Source of the DNA: Blautia sp.
GTDB taxonomy: Bacteria > Bacillota > Clostridia > Lachnospirales > Lachnospiraceae
DNA length: 11,088 bases
Assembly (NCBI GenBank): GCA_017420455.1
Contig: JAFOJB010000554.1
Span: 1 to 11,088 of the forward strand
Direction of reading: 5' to 3'
Part shown: piece by piece, positions 2 through 11,088 of the stretch
How positions within the stretch are numbered: position 1 is the first letter of the stretch
How the letters are laid out: the number at the start of each line of letters is the position of its first letter
The notes under the pieces: generated by a model
Told to the model about the DNA's origin: nothing
What the model saw: the letters and a program-made list of their open reading frames with translations, nothing else
Database searches by the model: none
Program-made: the position numbers and the translations under genes

Positions 2-898
2 TGCCAGAGCTCCTTCGCCATGGATATCAGCATGACCCTGAAAAAGGACGGAGAAAAGATCGCAAGGAAGTTTTTTGAGAAGCTCGGGGCGGATACGCTG
101 GAAGATGCGCTGCAGAAATCCAATGAGGAGCTTTATCAGGTTCAGATGCTGCTGAACGAGGCGGCGGGACCGGCTCCTTACCCCGGGACAGAATCAAAGT
201 TTTTATCGACAGCGGTGGACGGTGTCTGTATCAAAGAGGATTACTGGGACTATCTGATGTCCGGGGCCATGAAAGGAAAAACGGTCATCTTCGGGACGAA
301 CAGCGGAGAGTACGACCAGCAGTTTGAGCTTTTCGCGGCGGAGAATGATGTGCAGAGTGCCAGGCAGATGGTGATCGACCACAACTGGGGAAAGCTGGAT
401 AAGGAAAAAGGAACGAATCCGGAGTATGTGGAGGAGTATCTTTCCCATCACAGGGACGAGAGGGATGAAATGACCGCCCTTATGGATATGAAAATGGACC
501 TGTTTGTCCGGAACGCGGCGGTCAGCTTCGCGAAAAGCCTTGTGGGGATCGCGGATGTCTATATGTATGTCTTCGACCAGAGAAAAAACGATACTGTCAT
601 GGGGCGGTGCAGCCACGGTACGGAGCTGGAGGGAATCTTCGACCAGAGCGGCGTTCTTTCGGATAAGATGAAACGCATGATCCGCGATCTCTGGGCGAGT
701 GTGGCTAGGAACGGCCGTCCCGGCTGTGAAAGCCTGGGGATCACCTGGAAACCGTTCGGGGAGAAAAATGAGACGCTGCTCCTGGATGAAAACCCATCCA
801 TGGCAGAAGGCGTCCGCATGGACGACGTTCTGCTTACCATTCCTTCCTTCCGGGAATATAAGGAGTTTCCGAAGTTTGCCGCTTTATGGAAAGAATAA
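2..898 (+). CDS. Type B carboxylesterase (alpha/beta hydrolase), C-terminal part, truncated by the window edge
   Basis: The reading frame is open from base 2 (first residues CQSSFAMD) to a TAA at 896-898, so this is the last ~298 residues of a longer protein. It matches the second half of the carboxylesterase/cholinesterase family (usually ~500 residues), which hydrolyses carboxylic esters with a Ser-Glu-His triad. The acidic residue is visible in GTNSGEYDQ (Glu codon 308-310) and the catalytic His in GRCSHGTELEGIF (His codon 614-616). The GxSAG nucleophile elbow should lie just left of the window. The opening residues fit the segment shortly after that elbow, where family members read 'xQSG'. 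The C-terminus, WKPFGEKNETLLLDE then FAALWKE, is typical of the family. The ATG at 20 is internal, not the true start. The protein is probably cytoplasmic, but a signal peptide cannot be excluded without the N-terminus. The substrate is unknown. Confidence 0.88.
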   Translation, partial: CQSSFAMDISMTLKKDGEKIARKFFEKLGADTLEDALQKSNEELYQVQMLLNEAAGPAPYPGTESKFLSTAVDGVCIKEDYWDYLMSGAMKGKTVIFGTNSGEYDQQFELFAAENDVQSARQMVIDHNWGKLDKEKGTNPEYVEEYLSHHRDERDEMTALMDMKMDLFVRNAAVSFAKSLVGIADVYMYVFDQRKNDTVMGRCSHGTELEGIFDQSGVLSDKMKRMIRDLWASVARNGRPGCESLGITWKPFGEKNETLLLDENPSMAEGVRMDDVLLTIPSFREYKEFPKFAALWKE

Positions 899-1007: not shown

Positions 1008-2842
1008 ATGGAAAAAAACTATAACGGCCGGAAACAGACCCATACCTACCTGACCATGCCGGACGGCACCCGTCTGTCCTGTGTCCTGTTCATGCCATTA
1101 AAGGACGGAAAAGAACCGGAGGTTCCTCTGCCTGTGATCCTGAGCTATACGGCCTATGAGTGTCTGTATTACGCAGCGGGGCCGGACGGAACCGTATCAT
1201 CGAGACAAGGGCAGATTTCAACATGGATACTCTGACCGATTACGGGTATATCGTCGCCGTCGTTCAGGTCCGGGGATGCGGCGCCTCCTTCGGAACCCGA
1301 AAGGTGGTCGCCTCCCGGCAGGAGGCGCAGGACGGTGCGTATGTGGTGGAATATCTGGCTTCTCAGCCCTGGTGTGATCAGAATGTCATGACGGCGGGGC
1401 AGTCCTATAATGGACAGACACAGCTGGGAATTCTGTCCCGGAAGCCTGCGCACCTCAGGGCAGCCTATATCGGCAAGACAGACCTGAACCGGTACGACGG
1501 CTGGGTAAGAAACGGGATTCCCCGTGCCTTCGGATCCCGGCCGGATATTGACTGGGGAAAGACCAGGGAAGAGCAGGAAGCGGTGCTGGAACGGCTCGTT
1601 CAGGAGACCGTTCCGGTGGACGCAGATCCGGAACGCCAGCTGCTTCGGGAAGCCATCTCGGAGCATCTTCGGAACGGAAGTCAGGTCACCGCCCAGAGGG
1701 AATACAACTGGCGTGACAGCGAATGCCCTTATTTCGAAGGAAGCTTCTGGGACGCACTTTCCGCTTCCACGTATCTGCAGGATATCAATGCCTCCGGAGC
1801 AGTGGTCTATCTGGACGGAGGGGTGCTGGATGTGTTCCGCAGGGACACGATCCTGCTGTATCACAATCTGACCCTTCCGAAAAAGCTGATCATCGGTCCC
1901 TGGGATCATATCCGGCCGAAGCTTGATCCGGAACCCCGCTTTGAAATCCTCCGTCTGGCGGAGCATGTCCTGAAGGGCGTTGAAAACGGGATCATGGAGG
2001 AACCTCCTCTGACGCTGCGCGTCATGGAATACGATTTTCAGAACCACCGTTACAGCGGGCCAGGCACAGGGTATTACCGGAAGGAAAACTCCTGGCCGCT
2101 CTGGGAGGGCAGACGGGATGTATTCTATTTATCTCCGGAATCGAGAAATGGCATTCTTTTTGCCGGGGGTACAGGGAAAGAAAACGTTCCGGCAGCAGTT
2201 CTTTCGGCGGCGCAGCCGGAAATGTCCGGGATCGTATACCCGGTTGTCTATGGAATCTCTTCGGGGGTGGAGACGGACGATCTGCTGGCGGATCCGGAAA
2301 GAGGCGCCTGCAGCAGAGGCATGAATTTCCTGACGGATCCGTATCCGGAGGATATCGAATATATCGGCCATCCCTTCGCGGATATTTCCTTTACGGTTCT
2401 GGACGCCGGAGAAATGCCTGCGCCGCTGGATGTGGATGTGTTTGTCATGCTGTCTGATTTTGATCCGGAGACGGGACAGGCGTTCCAGTTCTGCAGCGGA
2501 TGGATGCGCTCCTCTCTGCGGACGCCCATAGGAACGCCCTCTTATGATTTCCTGGGATTACCCTGGCACGACTGCAGGAAGGGAGATAACGAATACCTGG
2601 AAACTGGAGGAACATATTCGCTCCAGATCGATCTGCTTCCGGTATTTTACCGGATCAGGAAAGGGCACCGGCTGCTGCTGACCGTCACCTGTTCCCTGGA
2701 CAGGACCTATTATGCAGGAAGGGAAATCTGCGAAATGAGTCCCGGGACTGCGGCGCCTGTCATTTCCTTCTGTACCGGCGGAGATAAGCCATGCTGCCTG
2801 ATCCTGCCGAATATCTATGCCGACAAGCCTGAAAATACATGA
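1008..2842 (+). pseudogene. CocE/NonD (X-Pro dipeptidyl-peptidase S15-like) hydrolase, interrupted by a one-base frameshift
   Basis: Translation starts at ATG 1008 behind AAAGGA (997-1002) and gives MEKNYNGRKQTHTYLTMPDG, then PVILSYTAYECLYY, the first beta-strands of an S15/CocE hydrolase. That frame ends at a stop at 1233-1235. The rest continues in the -1 frame from about 1161-1200 to a TGA at 2840-2842: NRIIETRADFN, then RGCGASFG, the nucleophile elbow GQSYNG (Ser codon 1403-1405), the acid in GGVLDVF (Asp codon 1829-1831) and the base in GPWDH (His codon 1907-1909). A C-terminal jelly-roll domain follows (DPYPEDIEYIGHPFADISF onward). Adding one base makes the span exactly 612 codons, normal for the family, so a single base seems to be missing. 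The GGGG at about 1179-1182 is the likeliest site. The family hydrolyses esters or amides, such as X-Pro peptides, cocaine-type esters and cephalosporin esters. Everything past the frameshift is intact, which suggests a recent mutation, phase variation or a sequencing error. A short product from GTG 1160 would lack the N-terminal strands. Confidence 0.82.
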
Positions 2843-2851
2843 CTCCGGTGC

Positions 2852-2899
2852 GAAAAGACCGTTCAGCAAAAAGACCGTTCAGCAAAAAGACCGTTCAGC
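2852..2899 (+). repeat. Tandem repeat, three copies of a 16-bp unit
   Basis: The unit AAAAAGACCGTTCAGC occurs three times head to tail, at 2852-2867, 2868-2883 and 2884-2899. The first copy differs only in its first base (G for A), and a partial A-rich start of a fourth follows. It fills the gap between the CocE-like stop (2842) and the TrkH start (2931). The period is not a multiple of three, so it is not a protein repeat. It could arise from slippage on the A-runs or act as an array of regulator sites; nothing here decides between these. Confidence 0.9.
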
Positions 2900-2930
2900 A
2901 AAAGGATGTCTTTCTGCACTGGAATCATAT

Positions 2931-4343
2931 ATGATGCGTATGAAAAGAATATTACAATCTGTCCGTTTCCGGCTTTCCCTTTTCGCAGGCCGGCTTTCTC
3001 CTTTACATATCATACCTTTCAGCTTTTTTGCGGCGATTCTGGCGGGGACGCTTCTGCTGCTGCTTCCCTGGGCTTCGTCCCCGGGGAGTTCGACGGATTT
3101 TCTGACAGCCTGCTTTACGGCGACTACCTCGGTATGCGTCACCGGACTGGTGGTGGTGGACACTTACGCCCACTGGAGCCTTTTCGGCCAGGTGGTTCTC
3201 CTTTTTCTGATCCAGATCGGAGGACTTGGCATTATTTCTGCCATCGCTCTTTTAATGATGGTCTTTCACAGAAAAATATCCCTGAAGAACCGCACGATCC
3301 TGCGGGATGCGCTGAACCTGGATTCTGTCTCGGGAACGCTGCGGTTTCTGCTCGGCGTTTTCAGAGGAACATTACTTGTAGAAGGCGTCGGGGCTCTGTT
3401 TTACGCGTTTTCTTTTGTTCCGGCCTGCGGGTGGAGGAAAGGATTATGGTATTCCGTCTTTCATGCGGTCTCGGCTTTCTGCAACGCCGGAATTGATATT
3501 CTGGGTCCGGACAGCCTGATGGGATATGCTTCTGACTGGTATTTCCTTTCTGTCACCATGCTGCTGATCATCACGGGAGGTCTGGGCTATGTCGTCTGGT
3601 TTGATGTCCGGAGTACAATGAAAAAGAGCCTTCGGCACAGGTTTTCGCTCAGGCAGATGCTGACCAGGCTCAGCGAACACAGCAAGCTGGTGCTGGGCAT
3701 GACTTTATTCCTGATTCTTGGCGGGGCGGTTTTCATTTTTTTCGCCGAAAGGACAAATCCGGGTACGCTGGGAGGAAAATCTTTTCCGGATCAGCTGCTG
3801 GGAAGTCTGTTCCAGTCGGTTACCTTCCGTACTGCCGGATTTGCGGCCATGCCGCAGGATAAACTGACGGGCGTATCCTGCCTTGCCGGTTATCTCCTGA
3901 TGTTTATAGGAGGCTCTCCGATCGGAACGGCCGGAGGCGTCAAAACGGTCACTTTTTTCCTTGTGCTGCTGAATGCCGCTTCCTATATCAGCGACCGGAA
4001 TTCCGCCGTCGTCTTCAGGCACAGCGTACCGGGAGAGCTGATGCGTAAGGCTGCCGCGATCGTTCTGGTAAGCTTTTTTTCCATGCTGCTGCTGACATTG
4101 CTCCTGATGTCGGTTTCCTCCGTGTCCATGGAGGACGGGCTTTTTGAAATATGCAGCGCAATAGCCACTGTCGGGCTGACGCGGGGGCTTACACCGAATC
4201 TCTCCACAGGAGGGAAGTGGATCGTGATCATCGCAATGTATCTGGGCAGGATCGGTCCGATCTCCATGGCGCTGTTCTTTTCCAGAATGCGGCAGGAGAA
4301 CAATCTGATCCATTTCGGGGAAGGAAGATTCTATGTGGGATAG
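2931..4343 (+). CDS. ktrB: Potassium uptake protein, TrkH/KtrB family membrane subunit
   Basis: This is a 470-residue integral membrane protein of the superfamily of K+ transporters, the ion-conducting subunit of Ktr/Trk systems. All four pore-loop filter segments are recognisable, each with its key glycine: TSVCVTGL (Gly72), FCNAGID (Gly187), TFRTAGF (Gly303) and ATVGLTRG (Gly415). Hydrophobic helices flank them, and GGSPIGTAGGVKT after loop 3 matches the gating region. The length fits KtrB (about 450). The start is chosen at ATG 2931 (GGAA at 2921-2924, six bases before), with ATGs at 2934 and 2940 as alternatives. The frame is open back to ATG 2817, but that start has no ribosome site, would overlap the previous gene and would translate the tandem repeat. 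The gene lies 128 bases before its regulatory partner. KtrB rather than TrkH proper is preferred because of the length and the single-domain partner. Confidence 0.93.
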   Translation: MMRMKRILQSVRFRLSLFAGRLSPLHIIPFSFFAAILAGTLLLLLPWASSPGSSTDFLTACFTATTSVCVTGLVVVDTYAHWSLFGQVVLLFLIQIGGLGIISAIALLMMVFHRKISLKNRTILRDALNLDSVSGTLRFLLGVFRGTLLVEGVGALFYAFSFVPACGWRKGLWYSVFHAVSAFCNAGIDILGPDSLMGYASDWYFLSVTMLLIITGGLGYVVWFDVRSTMKKSLRHRFSLRQMLTRLSEHSKLVLGMTLFLILGGAVFIFFAERTNPGTLGGKSFPDQLLGSLFQSVTFRTAGFAAMPQDKLTGVSCLAGYLLMFIGGSPIGTAGGVKTVTFFLVLLNAASYISDRNSAVVFRHSVPGELMRKAAAIVLVSFFSMLLLTLLLMSVSSVSMEDGLFEICSAIATVGLTRGLTPNLSTGGKWIVIIAMYLGRIGPISMALFFSRMRQENNLIHFGEGRFYVG

Positions 4344-4471: not shown

Positions 4472-5119
4472 ATGGTAAAATCTGTTGCAATACTTGGTCT
4501 TGGCAATTATGGAAGAAGCCTGGCGGAAAATCTGTTCGCGATGGGAGCGGACGTCCTGGTGGCAGATCGGAATGAAGAACTGATCCGGGATTTTTCTTCC
4601 CGGATCACTGCCGCAGTCTGTGTGGACCTTTCGGTCGAAGAGGAGGTTAAGCAGCTTGGCCTTCAGAACATGGATATCGTTGTTACCGCCATGGGGCAGG
4701 ATCTGGCTCCGAGCGTCATGTGTACGGTCATCGCGAAAGAAGCGGGAGTGCCTCTGGTCGTGTCAAAGGCCTCCTCGAACCTTATGGCTTCCATCTTAAA
4801 GCGAGTCGGCGCGGATAAAGTGATCAACCCGGAGAAAGAGAGCGGCCTTCGATCCGCCAGGGTGCTGATGTCCTCATCGTTTTTCGACTTTTTCCAGATC
4901 GACGATACGATCAATATGGCGGAGCTCTCCCCGAAAAAAGAATGGGAAGGAAAAACGATCCGTCAGCTGAATCTCCGCAGAAAGTATAATCTGAATGTGG
5001 TTGCGATCAAAAAGACGGACGGAAGTTGGAAGCCTGTCCGTCCGGATGAGGCGATCAGGGCCGATGAGAGGCTTCTGATCATCGCCGAAAAGGATGCGCT
5101 GGAAAGCGTCAGCCAGTGA
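4472..5119 (+). CDS. ktrA: Potassium uptake regulatory subunit, TrkA/KtrA family
   Basis: This 215-residue cytoplasmic protein forms the ring that gates KtrB/TrkH in response to bound nucleotide. The N-terminal RCK/TrkA-N Rossmann domain (residues ~1-130) shows GLGNYG at 9-14 and the ribose-binding acidic residue Asp32 in VADRNE. The segment ITAAVCVDLSVEEEVKQLG and the strand MDIVVTAMG follow as in the family. The TrkA-C domain occupies roughly 135-215 (WEGKTIRQLNLRRKYNLNVV, then ADERLLIIAE); in KtrA proteins this domain commonly binds c-di-AMP, which is family knowledge and cannot be seen here. One RCK unit and 215 residues fit KtrA rather than the double-domain TrkA of Gram-negatives. The ribosome site AGGAGG (4462-4467) lies four bases before the ATG. 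With ktrB upstream it makes a complete KtrAB system. The gene ends 24 bases before the convergent MmgE/PrpD gene, with no clear terminator between them. Confidence 0.94.
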   Translation: MVKSVAILGLGNYGRSLAENLFAMGADVLVADRNEELIRDFSSRITAAVCVDLSVEEEVKQLGLQNMDIVVTAMGQDLAPSVMCTVIAKEAGVPLVVSKASSNLMASILKRVGADKVINPEKESGLRSARVLMSSSFFDFFQIDDTINMAELSPKKEWEGKTIRQLNLRRKYNLNVVAIKKTDGSWKPVRPDEAIRADERLLIIAEKDALESVSQ

Positions 5120-5143: not shown

Positions 5144-6622
5144 TCAGGCGAAATGATCCTTTATAAAGCATCCCACGTCCTGTATGTCCTCGAAATGATC
5201 GATATTTTCCCGGACAGACAGGACTTTTTCCATGTCCGCAGCATGGGGGAAGAACCTTGTGCAGTCCAGGTATTTCTGCCAGAGCTGTTCTCTGGTAAGC
5301 GGCAATCCGGGGGAACCGGGACTTTCAGATACCTCCTTTTCGTAAGAACCATGCGTGGTCCGAAGAGTGACTTTTATATGGTCGTCCCCCAGTCCGTCGG
5401 ATCCTCCCGGACGTATTTCCCAGGTCACTTTCCGGGCTGTCTGAAGAAGCACTTTGGACAGGAGCTGTTCTTCAGTGAACATATCCAGCCGGATATCGCC
5501 GAAGGCCAGAGCAAGGCTCAGACAGAAAGGCATACTGAATTTGGCGGCGGCCAGGGTTCCGGGCCGGTATTTTGTTTCATAAGGCTCCAGTACACGAAGA
5601 TGGATCGGATCGATGGTAAGGTGGATCTCCAGAATTTCTTCCGGCTTCAGAATTTCGCCGGATTCCGTCCAGCCTGCGGAGCCGGTTTTTCCTGCCGCGG
5701 TATGCCATCCCGGGTAGAAGGGCAGCAGATTGTTTTCTTTCAGCAGGGAGAGAAGAGCGTGGATGCCCCCATGGGTCGTTCCGCAGCAGGGCCAGTATTT
5801 ATACCGGAGCGCGGAGGAGATCCAGTTTTCTCCCAGGTTCTGCAGGATGACAGCGGGATCATAGTTCCCCTTCACCATCATATGATACAGTCCAAGAGGA
5901 CCTTCGAAGGGCTCGTCCATCCGTGCTTCCACTCCCTTTTCGGCAAGAATCAGCGACATGGCGGCCGCTCTGGCTGAAAACGCGTCCCGTACTGCTCTCA
6001 GGGAGGATTCCCGCGAACGGGCCGCCTGCCCCGGCAGCATAATCTGTGTCATGCACAGGGAAAGGGCATCCAGCGTCCGGGAAGGTGGCAGCTTCATCAC
6101 TCCGGCTCCGGAAAAGACAGCGCCGTAGGCGCTGAACATGGAGGGAGAATACCATCCATTCTGCAGGTCGTCTGCGAGAAGAGCCAGCTTCAGCCGGCAG
6201 ACCAGTTCACTGCCGACCGCCATGGCGAGAAGAAAATCCTTCCCGCTGACAGGTCCCCTCCGGCCGGATTCCGCCAGGGCGAGAAGAACAGGAACGGAGG
6301 CGGTGTTGGGATGGGCTTTGGACAGGTCATGTCCGTCCTCGTAGTCCAGGGCGTGGATCAATGCGCCGTTGGCCATGGCAGCCATAACTGGCGAGGCCTG
6401 CTTCCCGGTCCCGATGATCGTGCAGGAAGGCTCCGGGCTGTTTTCCAGGGCATACTCGATGAAGGGGCGGCAGGCAGGCTCCAGAGAAGCCGCCGCCCCC
6501 ATGACGCCGAGGGAGTCCAGAAGGCTTTGCTTCTGCACCTTTATCACCCGCTGAGGGAGATCCTGATAACGCGCACAAAGCGCAAAGCCGATCAGTTTTT
6601 CCGTAATTCTGCTGTTTTCCAT
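5144..6622 (-). CDS. MmgE/PrpD family protein (2-methylcitrate dehydratase/cis-aconitate decarboxylase fold)
   Basis: A 492-residue protein of normal length for the MmgE/PrpD family, which includes 2-methylcitrate dehydratase, cis-aconitate decarboxylase and an iminodisuccinate epimerase. Family landmarks are ALDYEDGHDLSKAHPNTAS (residues 91-109, with Asp93 and His104), KYWPCCGTTHGGIHALL (275-291, His284) and KYRPGTLAAAKFSMPF (351-366). Two positions look atypical. The family's G-[FW]-H-x-T stretch reads GWYSP (Tyr158 for His), and the conserved Lys about 50 residues later appears to be Arg (around 209-212). This placement was done by eye. The ATG at 6622 lies 13 bases after the glycyl radical enzyme stop, and the weak GAGAG ribosome site overlaps that stop, so it is the last gene of the operon and may be translationally coupled. 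It likely acts on the product of the radical enzyme or on a related carboxylate. The exact reaction is not assignable. Confidence 0.85.
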   Translation of the reverse strand: MENSRITEKLIGFALCARYQDLPQRVIKVQKQSLLDSLGVMGAAASLEPACRPFIEYALENSPEPSCTIIGTGKQASPVMAAMANGALIHALDYEDGHDLSKAHPNTASVPVLLALAESGRRGPVSGKDFLLAMAVGSELVCRLKLALLADDLQNGWYSPSMFSAYGAVFSGAGVMKLPPSRTLDALSLCMTQIMLPGQAARSRESSLRAVRDAFSARAAAMSLILAEKGVEARMDEPFEGPLGLYHMMVKGNYDPAVILQNLGENWISSALRYKYWPCCGTTHGGIHALLSLLKENNLLPFYPGWHTAAGKTGSAGWTESGEILKPEEILEIHLTIDPIHLRVLEPYETKYRPGTLAAAKFSMPFCLSLALAFGDIRLDMFTEEQLLSKVLLQTARKVTWEIRPGGSDGLGDDHIKVTLRTTHGSYEKEVSESPGSPGLPLTREQLWQKYLDCTRFFPHAADMEKVLSVRENIDHFEDIQDVGCFIKDHFA

Positions 6623-6635
6623 GTCTTATTCTCTC

Positions 6636-9083
6636 TCAGAGCTGATGCTCGCTTCTCTGGATCACATCGTCCTGAATATATCTGGAGAGCTGGACAAAAT
6701 ATGCGCTGAATCCTCCTACACGGACAATAAGACCCTGATGCTCCTGCGGATTGACCTGCGCGTCCTTAAGCTCTTCCCCATCCACCAGGTTATACTGAAT
6801 ATGCGTGCCGCCGGCTCCCAGAAACGCGTTGGTATAGGAAACCAGCTTGTCTATGGCCTCGCTGCTCTTAAACATGCTTCTGGGGAATTTCTGATTCAGG
6901 GCCTGTACATAAGAGTGGTCTCCGAAATTCGCGCGGAGGACGGACCTGAGAACAGCGGTAGGTCCGTTTTTATCCATTCCCCGCATGGGAGAGGCGGATC
7001 CGTCATCCAGAGGCTCCTTCGCCTTGCGGCCGTTGGGAAGGGCGCCGACTCCCAGCCCGGCAGCGTAGTGCCAGGAAAGGCCTTCCCGCAGGGATTTGAA
7101 GGGAAGGTAGGGGGAATTATCCCAGCTGGTGATGGAGTCGGCGGACATCAGGCTTACACGGCGTGCCAGATCGTCTACCTCATCGATGCCGTTGCCGAAC
7201 TTCGGAACGGCAAGACACATTCTGCGGATCTCCTCGCCGCGCTCCCCCTCGAAGTTGCTGTCCAGGGCATCCATGAGTTCCGTCATGGTGAGTACTTGAT
7301 CCTCGAAGACCAGCTTCCTGACAGCATAGAGGGAGTCCGTGGTGTCGATGATGGCGCGGTCCGTAATTCCGTATTCCGACTGAAGATCCGGTACCATGGT
7401 ATCGTATCCTTCGTCCATACATTTCTGGATCGAGGTGACGGAAAGATACGGAAGCCTCAGATACTGGGCCTGGATATCCCTCACCAGATTCGCCATCCAG
7501 AGGGTGCGGTGCATGATGAAATGATGCTGCGCGACATAGGCGTCCCAGAGCTCTTCGAAGGATCTGAAGTTTCTGGGATCACCGGTAGAGAGCCCGAGCT
7601 TCTTGCCGGTGATGGCGACGCCGTTATGAAGAGCCAGATGGAGTATGGCCGCGTTATTGAAGCCTGCGGCGCCGCATTTATATTCAGACCGCTGAGGAAG
7701 AGCGGGCCAGACACAGCCGCGGCCGATCCAGTCCCGGGCTTCCGCAAGGGGGACGCCGTCCCGGACAAACAGATCGATGATCCCTTCTTCGTTTTCAAAC
7801 AGCGGAATTCCGCCGCCTGTCAGAATATTCGTTTCGATGGCTTTACGCATGAACCAGAGCGGGATATCGTGATTCCAGCGGACTCCCACGGTAGGAGAGG
7901 ACTGGCGGAGCAGTCCGAGGGCGTGAAGAAACAGATAACTGAGCTCGTTCGTTCCTTCTTTTCCCTCCGGAGTGATCCCTCCGAGGTTTATGCTGTTGAT
8001 GGCGAAGGTGATCTGATGCGTTTCCCGGTGGGTACCGGTATCCACATAGATGGTGGTTCCCCAGCGGCCGATGAGCTCGGCGAGCATGTTCATGGCCTTG
8101 TCCATGGACAGACGTCCTTCTCTGATATCCTTTATAAAGAAGGGATAAAGATACTGGTCGCCTCTGCCCCACTGGGGATGGTTGTGCATCGGATGTTCGA
8201 TCGCCTTGCAGATCCCGGTGATGGACATGGACTGGAGCGCCTCGTGAAAGGAACGGGCCGGATATTCCGGCACGTGTTCACAGGCCGCGGCCATCTCCAG
8301 AAGTTCGGCTCTGCGTTCGCTGTTCTGCTCCTTTCCGGCCATTTCCCGGGCAAGAGCGGCATATCTGTGAGAAAGATGGATGCAGGCTTCGCAGACGATG
8401 ATGGCAGCCTTCCAGAAATAGAATTTCTGGGGGCCCTGGCGTTCATTTTCGATAAAATCGTCCAGATGTGCCTGCGCCTCTTCGATAAAATACCGGAGTC
8501 CCTTGTTGAGAATCTTGTGAAAATCGATGGTATTGGTGGAATTTCCGAAATTGCCTGTGTTGAGGGGCGGGTCCTTCAGCCTGGCTTCGAGGATATCCTG
8601 CGGCCAGGTTCCCAGAATATCATAGAGGAGCTTATTTCCCATATCGGCAGTGGATGTGCCGCCGAATACACGGGAGGCTTCGCGGAGAATTTCTATTTCC
8701 TCCTGGGAAAGGGAGGATTTATCGTTCATGGAGAACTGGATCTCGCCTTCGTCGCCCCAGATTCCATCCAGGTAGTCGCCGCAGGTATCGATGGCGGTAT
8801 AAGCCCCGATGACGGTAGGGCCGACCCGTCCGACAATATAATCAAAATCCAGGATGCTGATTTCGATATTTTCCACAACATGAGCGAAAAGCTTTGCCCG
8901 GCGGATTTCCAGGTCTTCTCCCACCGTCTGTTTCCAGGATTCGGTGGCATATTTCTGGCGGTCCACATGGAGCTTGTAGGGAGCGTTTTTTACAGCTTCC
9001 TTCCAGCGGATCCGTTTTTCGTCCAGTTCGGTTTTATCGATCTGTTTCAGAATAAGAGGATCGATCATAACGTTTGGTTCCAT
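6636..9083 (-). CDS. Glycyl radical enzyme (PFL-like family), subtype not recognised
   Basis: An 815-residue enzyme of the pyruvate formate-lyase-like superfamily, which uses a backbone glycyl radical to make a thiyl radical on an active-site Cys. The C-terminal radical loop is RVGGFSAYF (788-796), so the radical glycine is Gly791; IQDDVIQRSEH follows as in the family. GGTHIQYNLVD (758-768) is the usual strand before it. The thiyl Cys is Cys457 in GRGCVWP. It is not PFL itself, which has adjacent Cys-Cys. The residue two after the Cys is Trp, where glycerol and propanediol dehydratases, choline lyase, hydroxyproline dehydratase and isethionate lyase have Glu. An arylsuccinate-synthase-like, decarboxylase-like or new activity is therefore open. 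The start is ATG 9083, because AAAGGA lies seven bases upstream; the open frame to 9212 overlaps the previous gene. No activating enzyme is adjacent. The third gene of the operon visible in this window. Confidence 0.93.
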   Translation of the reverse strand: MEPNVMIDPLILKQIDKTELDEKRIRWKEAVKNAPYKLHVDRQKYATESWKQTVGEDLEIRRAKLFAHVVENIEISILDFDYIVGRVGPTVIGAYTAIDTCGDYLDGIWGDEGEIQFSMNDKSSLSQEEIEILREASRVFGGTSTADMGNKLLYDILGTWPQDILEARLKDPPLNTGNFGNSTNTIDFHKILNKGLRYFIEEAQAHLDDFIENERQGPQKFYFWKAAIIVCEACIHLSHRYAALAREMAGKEQNSERRAELLEMAAACEHVPEYPARSFHEALQSMSITGICKAIEHPMHNHPQWGRGDQYLYPFFIKDIREGRLSMDKAMNMLAELIGRWGTTIYVDTGTHRETHQITFAINSINLGGITPEGKEGTNELSYLFLHALGLLRQSSPTVGVRWNHDIPLWFMRKAIETNILTGGGIPLFENEEGIIDLFVRDGVPLAEARDWIGRGCVWPALPQRSEYKCGAAGFNNAAILHLALHNGVAITGKKLGLSTGDPRNFRSFEELWDAYVAQHHFIMHRTLWMANLVRDIQAQYLRLPYLSVTSIQKCMDEGYDTMVPDLQSEYGITDRAIIDTTDSLYAVRKLVFEDQVLTMTELMDALDSNFEGERGEEIRRMCLAVPKFGNGIDEVDDLARRVSLMSADSITSWDNSPYLPFKSLREGLSWHYAAGLGVGALPNGRKAKEPLDDGSASPMRGMDKNGPTAVLRSVLRANFGDHSYVQALNQKFPRSMFKSSEAIDKLVSYTNAFLGAGGTHIQYNLVDGEELKDAQVNPQEHQGLIVRVGGFSAYFVQLSRYIQDDVIQRSEHQL

Positions 9084-9097
9084 TCCTTTTTCCTTTC

Positions 9098-10645
9098 TTA
9101 AAACCTGAGGGGACATTTCCGGGCTTCTTCGAGCATGGCGGCGGCCCCTTCTGGCAGGATCCATCTTTCTTCGGTCATTTCCTCCAGCCTTCTGCTTACC
9201 GCTGCAAGCCACTTCTCCTTTGTACCGTACAGAGCCCGCAGCTTTTCGGGAGAAAAGGGGATGATGGTTCCGTCGTCCAGATACACGGCAGCAGGGACAT
9301 CCACATAATGGCTCCGGACTCCGCCGGTCTGGTTGCCATGTTCATCGTAAAGGAAGTCGGTATCCGGATACGGGCCGGTGATCTGCAGATACGAAGCTTT
9401 GGGAAGGGGAATTCCCAGGCTGCTCCAGTCCTTCAGATTGCGGTAGATCCCGGTGATGATATGCTGCATGATGGAAACACCGGGAAGATCACAGGGCTCC
9501 ACTTCCCCTGATTTTTCGGAAGGAGTCAGGGGGTGGCCGCCTGCCAGGGTATTATCCTTGTGATTTCTGTCAGCCACACCTGCTTTTTCCAGTTCTTCCG
9601 GACCGGGATATACCTTAAAATCGCTCCGGGTGCAATACTTGAGGGATGCCCCGGCCACCTCATAGGTGCGGCCGATTTTCCCGGGTTCGTCTGTGTTTTC
9701 GCTGCGGAACATGCATGCCCAGAGGGGATGGGGCAGGGTTCCCCGGATATCCCCCGCGGTCTGCAGCCGCACAATGGGGACACGTCCGCCGCATTTGCAG
9801 CGGGGATCGTCCCAGGGAAGAATATCCTCTTCCCGGTTCAGATTTCCGGCACGGCCGGACATGTAGATGACCGCTCCATCATAGATGGGCCTGTCCTCTT
9901 CCAGCATGGAATAGGGCATGACAGCCGCGACATAACAGGGAATTTCGGCAAAGGTAACGCCGATCAGGTAGGTATGTTCTGCGCGGTAACCTTCAAAAGG
10001 AGTACCCGGCCGGCCGCGCTTGATCATGGCGCTTACCTGGCTCATGATATCCATGTCCAGACCTTTTTCGGTGGAAGGATCGTCCGGGAGAGCGCCGCAT
10101 TTGTTCTTTTCCCACTGGTCCGGGCTGGAGGCCATATTGCCGACGGGCTTTCTTTCTTCCGGGGGAAGCGGGTTCGCGAGGGAAAGCGGAGCGTAGCGGA
10201 CAGGATCAAAGGTTTTCAGTGCCTGGAAGGTGGTTCCTGCGATGGACATGCCCACATATCCGTCTCCGGAGGCCAGAATATGCTCGAAGGCGCTTCCCCA
10301 GCCTACATTGGGATTGTCGATTCCCATTCCCCCGTGCATCATTTCCACCATGACATTCCCGCTGAAGGAGGCAGGATCGGCGGGCCTGCGGACAATGACA
10401 CGGGTGCAGTACGGGCAGTTTTCCGATTTGATTCCCGGTCTTCCGGTGGTGTCCTTCCAGGCATACACATTGGCTTTTCCCATGACCAGATATTCTTCTT
10501 CCAGATATCCATAAAGGGAAAGGTCGATCGGATCCTCCTGATGGGAAGCCATGTTGAGGGGATAGCTTTTTTCTGTAATTTCCAGCTTTTTTACAACAGG
10601 ATCCGGTACAATAAAGGGTTCTATATATTTTTCATAGTCTGCCAT
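9098..10645 (-). CDS. Alpha/beta-hydrolase-domain protein (Abhydrolase_10-like), probably without the usual catalytic triad
   Basis: A 515-residue protein resembling the large 'alpha/beta hydrolase domain-containing' family. Landmarks are EEEYLVMGKANVYAW (49-63), TRVIVRRPADPASFSGNVMVE (81-101), IYDGAVIYMSGR (254-265) and GGVRSHYVDVPAAVY (441-455). From memory of the family, the nucleophile stretch is GxSQS; here it reads GVTFA (229-233), with Thr231 at the Ser position. The acid stretch 'QTExD' reads QTAGD (Ala297), and 'EVAGxxH' reads EVAGASLKY (Leu335 for His). If that alignment is right, the protein is a non-canonical or inactive hydrolase. It also carries CPYC (Cys77, Cys80) and CKC (Cys283, Cys285), which could form a metal site. 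No signal peptide is seen. ATG 10645 is chosen: AGGAGAGG lies 11 bases upstream, and the start is 8 bases after the ABC ATPase stop. The frame is open further upstream, but that part overlaps the ATPase gene. Its operon position points to a role with the glycyl radical enzyme. Confidence 0.78.
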   Translation of the reverse strand: MADYEKYIEPFIVPDPVVKKLEITEKSYPLNMASHQEDPIDLSLYGYLEEEYLVMGKANVYAWKDTTGRPGIKSENCPYCTRVIVRRPADPASFSGNVMVEMMHGGMGIDNPNVGWGSAFEHILASGDGYVGMSIAGTTFQALKTFDPVRYAPLSLANPLPPEERKPVGNMASSPDQWEKNKCGALPDDPSTEKGLDMDIMSQVSAMIKRGRPGTPFEGYRAEHTYLIGVTFAEIPCYVAAVMPYSMLEEDRPIYDGAVIYMSGRAGNLNREEDILPWDDPRCKCGGRVPIVRLQTAGDIRGTLPHPLWACMFRSENTDEPGKIGRTYEVAGASLKYCTRSDFKVYPGPEELEKAGVADRNHKDNTLAGGHPLTPSEKSGEVEPCDLPGVSIMQHIITGIYRNLKDWSSLGIPLPKASYLQITGPYPDTDFLYDEHGNQTGGVRSHYVDVPAAVYLDDGTIIPFSPEKLRALYGTKEKWLAAVSRRLEEMTEERWILPEGAAAMLEEARKCPLRF

Positions 10646-10653
10646 GAATATCG

Positions 10654-11088
10654 TTACCTCTCCTTTTCCTGCTGCAGAGAATTGATTTCCCGCACACGGC
10701 AGCAGGCGGCAAAATGCTGCGGGAAGATTTCTTCGAGCTTCTGTTCTTCCTGACATCGTTCACAGGCATAGGGACAACGCTGGGCAAAACGGCAGCCTGG
10801 CTTTGGATTTATAGGGGATACCACTTCACCCTTCAGAAGGATCCTCTCCCGCTTATGGTGAATATCGATGGAAGGGATCGCGGAGAGGAGCGCTTTGGAA
10901 TACGGGTGAAGGGGCTTTTCAAAAAGCTCGTCGGAAGGACTGGTTTCCACCAGCTGACCCAGGTACATCACGCAGATATCGTGGGAAATATGCTTTACCA
11001 CCGAAAGATCATGGGTGATGAACATAAATGCGACGCCGTGTTCCTTCTGCAGCTCCTTGATCAGATTCAGGATCTGCGCCTGAATGGA
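10654..11088 (-). CDS. Oligopeptide/dipeptide ABC transporter ATP-binding protein, C-terminal part, truncated by the window edge
   Basis: The last 144 residues of an ATPase that powers uptake of peptides, nickel or related solutes across the membrane; the N-terminal part lies beyond the right edge. The visible part begins just after the Walker B/D-loop region (SIQAQILNLIKEL, from 'ALDVSIQAQIL'). It then has the switch histidine in FITHDLSVV, the strand VMYLGQLVE, and the oligo_HPY extension: HPYSKALLSAIP, GEVVSPINPKPGCRFAQRCPYA and a closing Cys. This extension is diagnostic of the DppD/DppF/OppD/OppF group. A position last in the transporter operon favours the second ATPase (OppF/DppF), but that is inference. 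The TAA at 10654-10656 lies 8 bases from the next gene, so transport and metabolism genes share one transcript. The substrate is not assignable. Confidence 0.93.
   Translation of the reverse strand, partial: SIQAQILNLIKELQKEHGVAFMFITHDLSVVKHISHDICVMYLGQLVETSPSDELFEKPLHPYSKALLSAIPSIDIHHKRERILLKGEVVSPINPKPGCRFAQRCPYACERCQEEQKLEEIFPQHFAACCRVREINSLQQEKER

Follow-up and report, generated by a model that had tools for sequence, protein, structure and literature searches.

A glycyl radical enzyme lacking the Cys-X-Glu glutamate, encoded beside an MmgE/PrpD gene in Blautia sp., and its small uncharacterised clade

The locus and its glycyl radical enzyme

The stretch of DNA analysed here (the window) comprises 11,088 nucleotides of Blautia sp. 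(assembly GCA_017420455.1, contig JAFOJB010000554.1) and carries on its minus strand a gene for a glycyl radical enzyme (GRE) whose catalytic Cys457 is followed by Val and Trp, and not by the Glu that closes the Cys-X-Glu (CXE) motif. Reading along this strand, the order is ABC transporter ATPase fragment, PF20091 hydrolase, GRE and MmgE/PrpD family protein, with gaps of only 14 and 13 bp on the two sides of the GRE (Table 1). The GRE open reading frame (ORF) is intact, running from an ATG at 9083 to a stop that ends at 6636, and a plausible ribosome site, judged by sequence, precedes the start. When the eight proteins of the window were scanned against family libraries, the GRE matched PF02901 (E 3.8e-128) and PF01228 (E 1.2e-22), both over the cut-off, and its AlphaFold2 model has the GRE fold (pLDDT 87.1, pTM 0.90). 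In an alignment of 22 GREs G456, C457 and G791 were invariant, and the radical-loop glycine, the thiyl cysteine and Trp459 lie exactly where the original prediction, made from the letters of the window, had placed them. An 826-aa open frame on the plus strand (6621-9101), antisense to the GRE, is probably an artefact of the coding strand.

Table 1. Genes and gene fragments recognised in the window
Feature	Coordinates	Strand	Evidence
Carboxylesterase end	2-898	+	Family profile scan
CocE/NonD-type hydrolase	1160..2842	+	TIGR00976, 143.4 bits (cut-off 66.3)
TrkH potassium uptake gene	2817-4343	+	Family profile scan
TrkA-like potassium uptake gene	4472-5119	+	Family profile scan
MmgE/PrpD family protein, 492 aa	5144..6622	-	PF03972 E 2.1e-46, PF19305 E 4.1e-18; begins 13 bp past GRE stop
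GRE, 815 aa; thiyl Cys457 in GRGCVWP, radical Gly791 in RVGGFSAYF	6636..9083	-	Pfam and alignment
Alpha/beta hydrolase, PF20091 (Abhydrolase_10)	9098..10756	-	E 1.9e-73; ends 14 bp upstream of GRE start
Oligo/dipeptide-type ABC transporter ATPase, C-terminal part, gene cut by contig end	10654..11088	-	PF08352 E 9.1e-20

The GRE is clearly under purifying selection. The ratio of nonsynonymous to synonymous substitution rates (dN/dS) was about 0.03 between the window and its closest relative L007 (90% identical), and 0.18 against L008; two pairs from the other branch of the clade described below gave 0.09 and 0.03. All four are rough figures, since in three of the pairs synonymous sites approach saturation. 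Since ten relatives are open over their full length and dN/dS is as low as about 0.03, the ORF is not a chance one.

Relatives, distribution and phylogeny

The window GRE and these ten relatives, 49-90% identical to it, form one clade. L007 comes from the uncultured Lachnospiraceae RUG12824, a name that we take to belong to a rumen series, and L008 (66% identical) from a Eubacterium sp. of goat ileum. L009-L014 (52-53%) belong to Bacillota metagenome-assembled genomes, presumably of series from anaerobic digesters, and genome searches added L050 from genome G342 (53% to the window, 87% to L009) and G471 (49% to the window). The clade is rare and patchy. A scan of 84,980 species, with one genome per species, returned 10 loci, eight of which were accepted as members (L007-L014); as an exact 8-residue word was required, 10 is a lower bound. 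Across the phylum 3 of 398 genomes had a match, the window's own included; in the class of G156, with the L009 protein as query, 7 of 97 did, one of them the distant G505; and in the window's order the only match among 392 genomes was the window's own. Six of 61 near relatives matched at E 1e-100, where again the window's own was the only member and the others were paralogs 32-34% identical.

The 40 GREs of the tree comprise 26 of the window and the genomes fetched, 11 that are plasmid-borne and 3 solved proteins. The 11 members form one group in it with support of 100/100, and G505 is their sister (100/99) on a long branch. Six GREs with Asp at the second position after the cysteine (Cys+2) join a Novosphingobium GRE (100/100; by themselves 90/79), and the 19 CXE sequences need two changes on the tree. 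Because the root is a midpoint root and the deep order is unsettled, the tree makes no statement on whether the clade lost the Glu or never had it.

Active site and comparison with characterised GREs

The original prediction had noted the absence of Glu at Cys+2, and this holds for all 12 sequences examined, that is, the 11 members and G505. The residue is Trp in the window, L007 and L008, Tyr in L009-L014 and L050, and Thr in G471 (3, 7 and 1 of 11), and in G505 it is Gly (Cys-Leu-Gly). As Trp varies within the clade, the signature is the missing Glu and not Trp; the earlier argument from Trp459 against the known reactions rests less on Trp, which is no family constant, than on the absent Glu. 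Lack of CXE is not unique to the clade, for other GREs of the data set have Cys-X-Asp, Cys-Val-Val, Cys-Leu-Gly or Cys-Thr-Ala. The radical loop bears out the prediction as well, its GG-F form (RVGGF or RIGGF) being common to all 11 members, each of which keeps Gly791 and not the Ala, Ser or Thr at the radical position that would mark an aminoacyl radical enzyme.

Besides these motifs, 36 columns are invariant across the clade and present in at most one of the 29 remaining GREs; they include T183, W341, H356, Q357, I362, N363, W403, D575, R576 and A577, and also R666, E667, L669, W671 and Y673. The A577 column holds Gly in other GREs, and D575 and R576 occur among the 29 only in G505. By alignment to the barrel strands named in the literature, these clade-specific residues probably line the pocket. 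In CutC and HypD an aromatic residue packs against the substrate, and it corresponds to Trp374 in IslA (PMC8473560); in the window this column is Ile362, invariant in the clade, and some CXE GREs of the set (e.g. L008a) likewise have no aromatic residue there.

None of the solved, plasmid-borne and same-genome GREs compared exceeds 34% identity to the window GRE, a level under the 40-50% that PMC11528403 places below the threshold separating most functionally distinct GREs. The protein reached no NCBIfam function cut-off, the best score being 464.5 bits against 1000 (NF048011, HpsG-type), with the other 11 listed GRE models also below theirs. The suggestion that it lies outside the best-known subclasses thus stood for all those that could be tested.

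The CXE motif is described as conserved among GRE eliminases, where its Glu acts as base or positioning residue, and HypD and IslA mutants that had lost this Glu were without activity (PMC8473560, PMC7077986); IAD and HPAD carry Glu at Cys+2 too (PMC6181972). With Cys-Val-Trp in place of the motif of glycerol and propanediol dehydratases, CutC, HypD, IslA and HpsG, and with Glu kept in the eliminases as in IAD and HPAD, the evidence speaks against classing the window protein in either group. The original prediction took this as an argument against all the reactions that it named; it makes elimination less likely only, since the base could occupy another pocket site such as E667. An eliminase (dehydratase or C-N/C-S lyase) with its general base relocated to another pocket residue, such as E667 on strand 8 or D575, is the main rival to the reading proposed below, and we regard it as unlikely though serious. 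Against it stand the conserved and, in HypD and IslA, indispensable Glu that is missing in 12 of 12 sequences and, for the sulfonate lyases, the binding site: at the columns of IslA Arg189, Gln193 and Arg678 both phmmer and MAFFT found no Arg or Gln in the window protein; the two programs set strand 1 in registers 1-2 residues apart, and R666 lies one column off Arg678. IslA/IseG and HpsG thus differ from it in both CXE Glu and sulfonate-binding Arg/Gln, and no sulfite-pathway gene was recognised among the eight window proteins scanned. Glycerol and 1,2-propanediol dehydratases are about 29-30% identical to it and have the Glu that it lacks, and no microcompartment gene was found among the same eight proteins.

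An arylacetate-type decarboxylase, with Trp or Tyr459 stacking on an aromatic ring, is improbable: HPAD and IAD have Glu where the window has Trp459, the NCBIfam scores (IAD 331 against a cut-off of 1100, HPAD 235 against 1150) are far too low, and G471 carries Thr at Cys+2. Pyruvate formate-lyase differs in having two adjacent cysteines where the window has Gly456-Cys457, and its match is only about E 1e-19.

Fumarate-adding synthases do not need CXE chemistry, and benzylsuccinate synthase (BSS) and (1-methylalkyl)succinate synthase (MASS) share the GRE fold with the window protein. The latter might then be an X-succinate synthase, or work in reverse and split a substituted succinate, e.g. 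tricarballylate into acetate and fumarate; succinate-like acids are substrates of MmgE/PrpD enzymes, and E667 belongs to the sequence region, of unsettled register, that matches the polar residue lining the site in BSS (Gln707) and MASS (Glu690; PMC12358834). The same paper places a fumarate-binding Arg at Cys+15 in X-succinate synthases; the window protein has Ala472 at Cys+15 and no Arg in 466-490, which would disfavour fumarate addition, in a comparison of positions made without residue-level alignment to BSS or MASS. No accessory subunit gene was recognised in the window, and we consider this reading slightly more improbable even than arylacetate decarboxylation.

Similar in gene context are the Cys-X-Asp GREs (C296 in the window's genome and G002), which are likewise paired with MmgE/PrpD and without Glu at Cys+2; they are a separate group, with Asp at Cys+2, an RVAGY loop and 32-34% identity to the window. 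In the literature searched we found no description of a conserved non-CXE clade with MmgE/PrpD beside some members.

MmgE/PrpD and transporter genes beside non-CXE GREs

Members of the MmgE/PrpD family include enzymes that dehydrate, decarboxylate or epimerise di- and tricarboxylates. Among solved proteins those nearest to the window's, with hits to 2hp0 (E 2.2e-20) and 7bra (E 1.3e-18), are iminodisuccinate (IDS) epimerase and IRG1/cis-aconitate decarboxylases; the similarity is low, and none of the NCBIfam cut-offs was reached. The GREs adjoined by an MmgE/PrpD gene are those of the window, L007, G505 (L048), C296 (L053) and G002 (L057). At G505 the order is GntR, GRE, MmgE/PrpD, activase and DctP, and at C296 a Cys-Val-Asp GRE is separated by 9 bp from MmgE/PrpD, followed by a PGA_cap protein and TctA. 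Among the loci inspected this adjacency was found for 5 of 21 non-CXE GREs and for 0 of 7 CXE loci (the L008 cluster, L015, L016, L058, L060, L086 and L089). The non-CXE GREs without it are those of L008, L009-L014, L050, L047, L054, L059 (two GREs), L082, L083, L085 and L088; L036 and L056 (short contigs) and L055 (contig end) were left out. As the loci are related and non-random, and some contigs end near the GRE (e.g. L047), we attach no p-value to the pairing. In the window's genome two of the three MmgE/PrpD genes adjoin GREs, which could hardly come about by chance among an estimated 3,000 or so genes. Carboxylate-type transporter genes also lie beside other non-CXE GREs, namely DctP (L048), TctA (L053, L057) and CitMHS/MatC (L054). 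The MmgE/PrpD neighbour is the best clue to function.

Activase

A radical S-adenosylmethionine (rSAM) activase gene lies directly upstream of the GRE in L009, L013, G471 and L050 (where the contig end cuts it), and likewise, judged by eye from the ORF list, in L010, L011, L012 and L014 (cut). It thus accompanies the GRE in 8 of the 11 members, which supports a working GRE; a LysR regulator diverges from the unit in L009 and L013 (by Pfam) and in L010 and L012 (by eye). The window, L007 and L008 lack an adjacent activase. In the window's genome two activases, at C270 and C66, exceed the family cut-off, and both have other GREs as neighbours. Compared with the L009 activase, the activases of G000 (2), G900 (the L007 genome; 3) and G901 (the L008 genome; 5) scored 174-271 bits, against 330 bits for the G471 activase and 411 bits for that of L013.

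Proposed function

In the chemistry of GREs, which are oxygen-sensitive, the glycyl radical generates a thiyl radical on the cysteine, which abstracts a hydrogen from the substrate. Our preferred reading, held tentatively and a little short of probable, is that the window encodes a working GRE of a small uncharacterised clade, which would act on a carboxylate and dispense with the CXE base. An rSAM activase would place the radical on Gly791, from which a thiyl radical on Cys457 would form and take hydrogen from the substrate; these steps are supported here by the conserved anatomy. The following step would proceed without the CXE glutamate, Cys+2 being Trp, Tyr or Thr. The substrate would be an organic acid, a class suggested by neighbouring genes, mostly those of related loci, and may be held by the clade-specific polar candidates R576 with D575, H356-Q357 and E667. 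The reaction may be C-C cleavage, decarboxylation or rearrangement of the carboxylate, and in the window's lineage its product or precursor would be handled by the co-encoded MmgE/PrpD enzyme. The earlier idea of an uncharacterised reaction class survives in so far as the protein fits no testable subclass, and is weakened in that elimination with a relocated base is its strongest rival.

Several observations weigh against the proposal. MmgE/PrpD adjoins the GRE in only 2 of the 11 members (window and L007), and it was not found anywhere in four clade genomes (G905, G906, G907 and G342); missing beside nine members and from these genomes, it is not always required for the reaction. The window's own transporter is an Opp/Dpp-type ATPase, neither tricarboxylate nor tripartite ATP-independent periplasmic (TRAP) type. 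Identity between the Cys-Val-Trp and Cys-Val-Tyr branches is only about 53%, so that their substrates may not be the same, and the pocket assignment comes from an alignment at about 30% identity. The window's contig also gave no activase match, and the activases examined in G000, G900 and G901 do not look orthologous to the clade's own, so that in the window's lineage activation would occur in trans, or the gene is missing from the assemblies. An inactive or decaying GRE, which this absence and the placing of C270 and C66 beside other GREs would favour, is nevertheless very improbable, given the intact ORF, the dN/dS of about 0.03 and the retained radical residues; moreover, the window's assembly (593 contigs) is 78% complete, and one activase may serve several GREs.

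Beyond the single enzyme, non-CXE GREs (Cys-Val-Trp in the window, Cys-Leu-Gly in G505, Cys-Val-Asp in C296 and G002) together with MmgE/PrpD and mostly a carboxylate-type transporter might make up an undescribed type of anaerobic pathway, in which a thiyl radical would cleave or rearrange a di- or tricarboxylate skeleton and MmgE/PrpD would dehydrate, decarboxylate or epimerise the partner compound. We offer this as speculation, unlikely as it stands.

Neighbouring genes and other GREs

The PF20091 hydrolase, whose coordinates are those of the longest ORF and whose real start may lie closer to 10644, probably shares an operon with the GRE; a relative likewise ends immediately upstream of the GRE in L007. 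The ABC ATPase fragment, which scored above the TIGR01727 cut-off and, as expected of a fragment, below those of the full-length DppF/OppF models, possibly belongs to this operon too. A functional link of the CocE/NonD-type hydrolase, on the opposite strand, is only suggestive. Hydrolases of this type (Peptidase_S15/PepX_C) adjoin MmgE/PrpD in L061 and L063 and lie nearby in L064, in stretches that contain no GRE. The source bacterium probably lives in the gut.

Other GREs met in the survey were varied. Those with Asp at Cys+2 in the window's genome and its kin (L053 = G000:C296, L057 = G002:C42, L059, L054, L082, L083, L085) carry GCVDGN, GCLDLN, GCLDGN or GCIDGN. Genes next to some of them encode MmgE/PrpD and TctA, or CitMHS/MatC and a pair of HGD-D proteins (2-hydroxyglutaryl-CoA dehydratase type). 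The goat-ileum genome G901 (L008, L085-L089) is rich in GREs, with four GCVE GREs around the Cys-Val-Trp one; it also has additional GRE-activase pairs and, nearby, several old-yellow-enzyme/BaiCD-like flavoproteins (two by Pfam, others by eye). A Cys-Thr-Ala GRE (FGCTATGL) lies beside an activase at L088:2593-5076. Cys-Val-Val GREs (NCGCVVPHFRK) occur in Peptoclostridium acidaminophilum (L076) and Acetoanaerobium noterae (L079), which we take to be amino-acid fermenting Clostridia, and the tree puts them close to CutC, modestly supported (82/67). A plasmid of Novosphingobium sp. PP1Y (L077), of a presumably aerobic genus, has a GRE-like frame with Cys-Leu-Gly and the radical loop RIGGCSAYF.

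Implications

Characterised GREs stand behind the trimethylamine, p-cresol, skatole and sulfite-derived hydrogen sulfide made by gut bacteria. GREs as a kind are already known; what appears to be new is the non-CXE clade with MmgE/PrpD beside some of its members. The chemistry of this clade, partly tied to MmgE/PrpD, is probably not predictable by analogy with the eliminases, and the clade presents two concrete objects for testing: in one branch activase and GRE form a compact unit, and in the other a GRE is paired with MmgE/PrpD.
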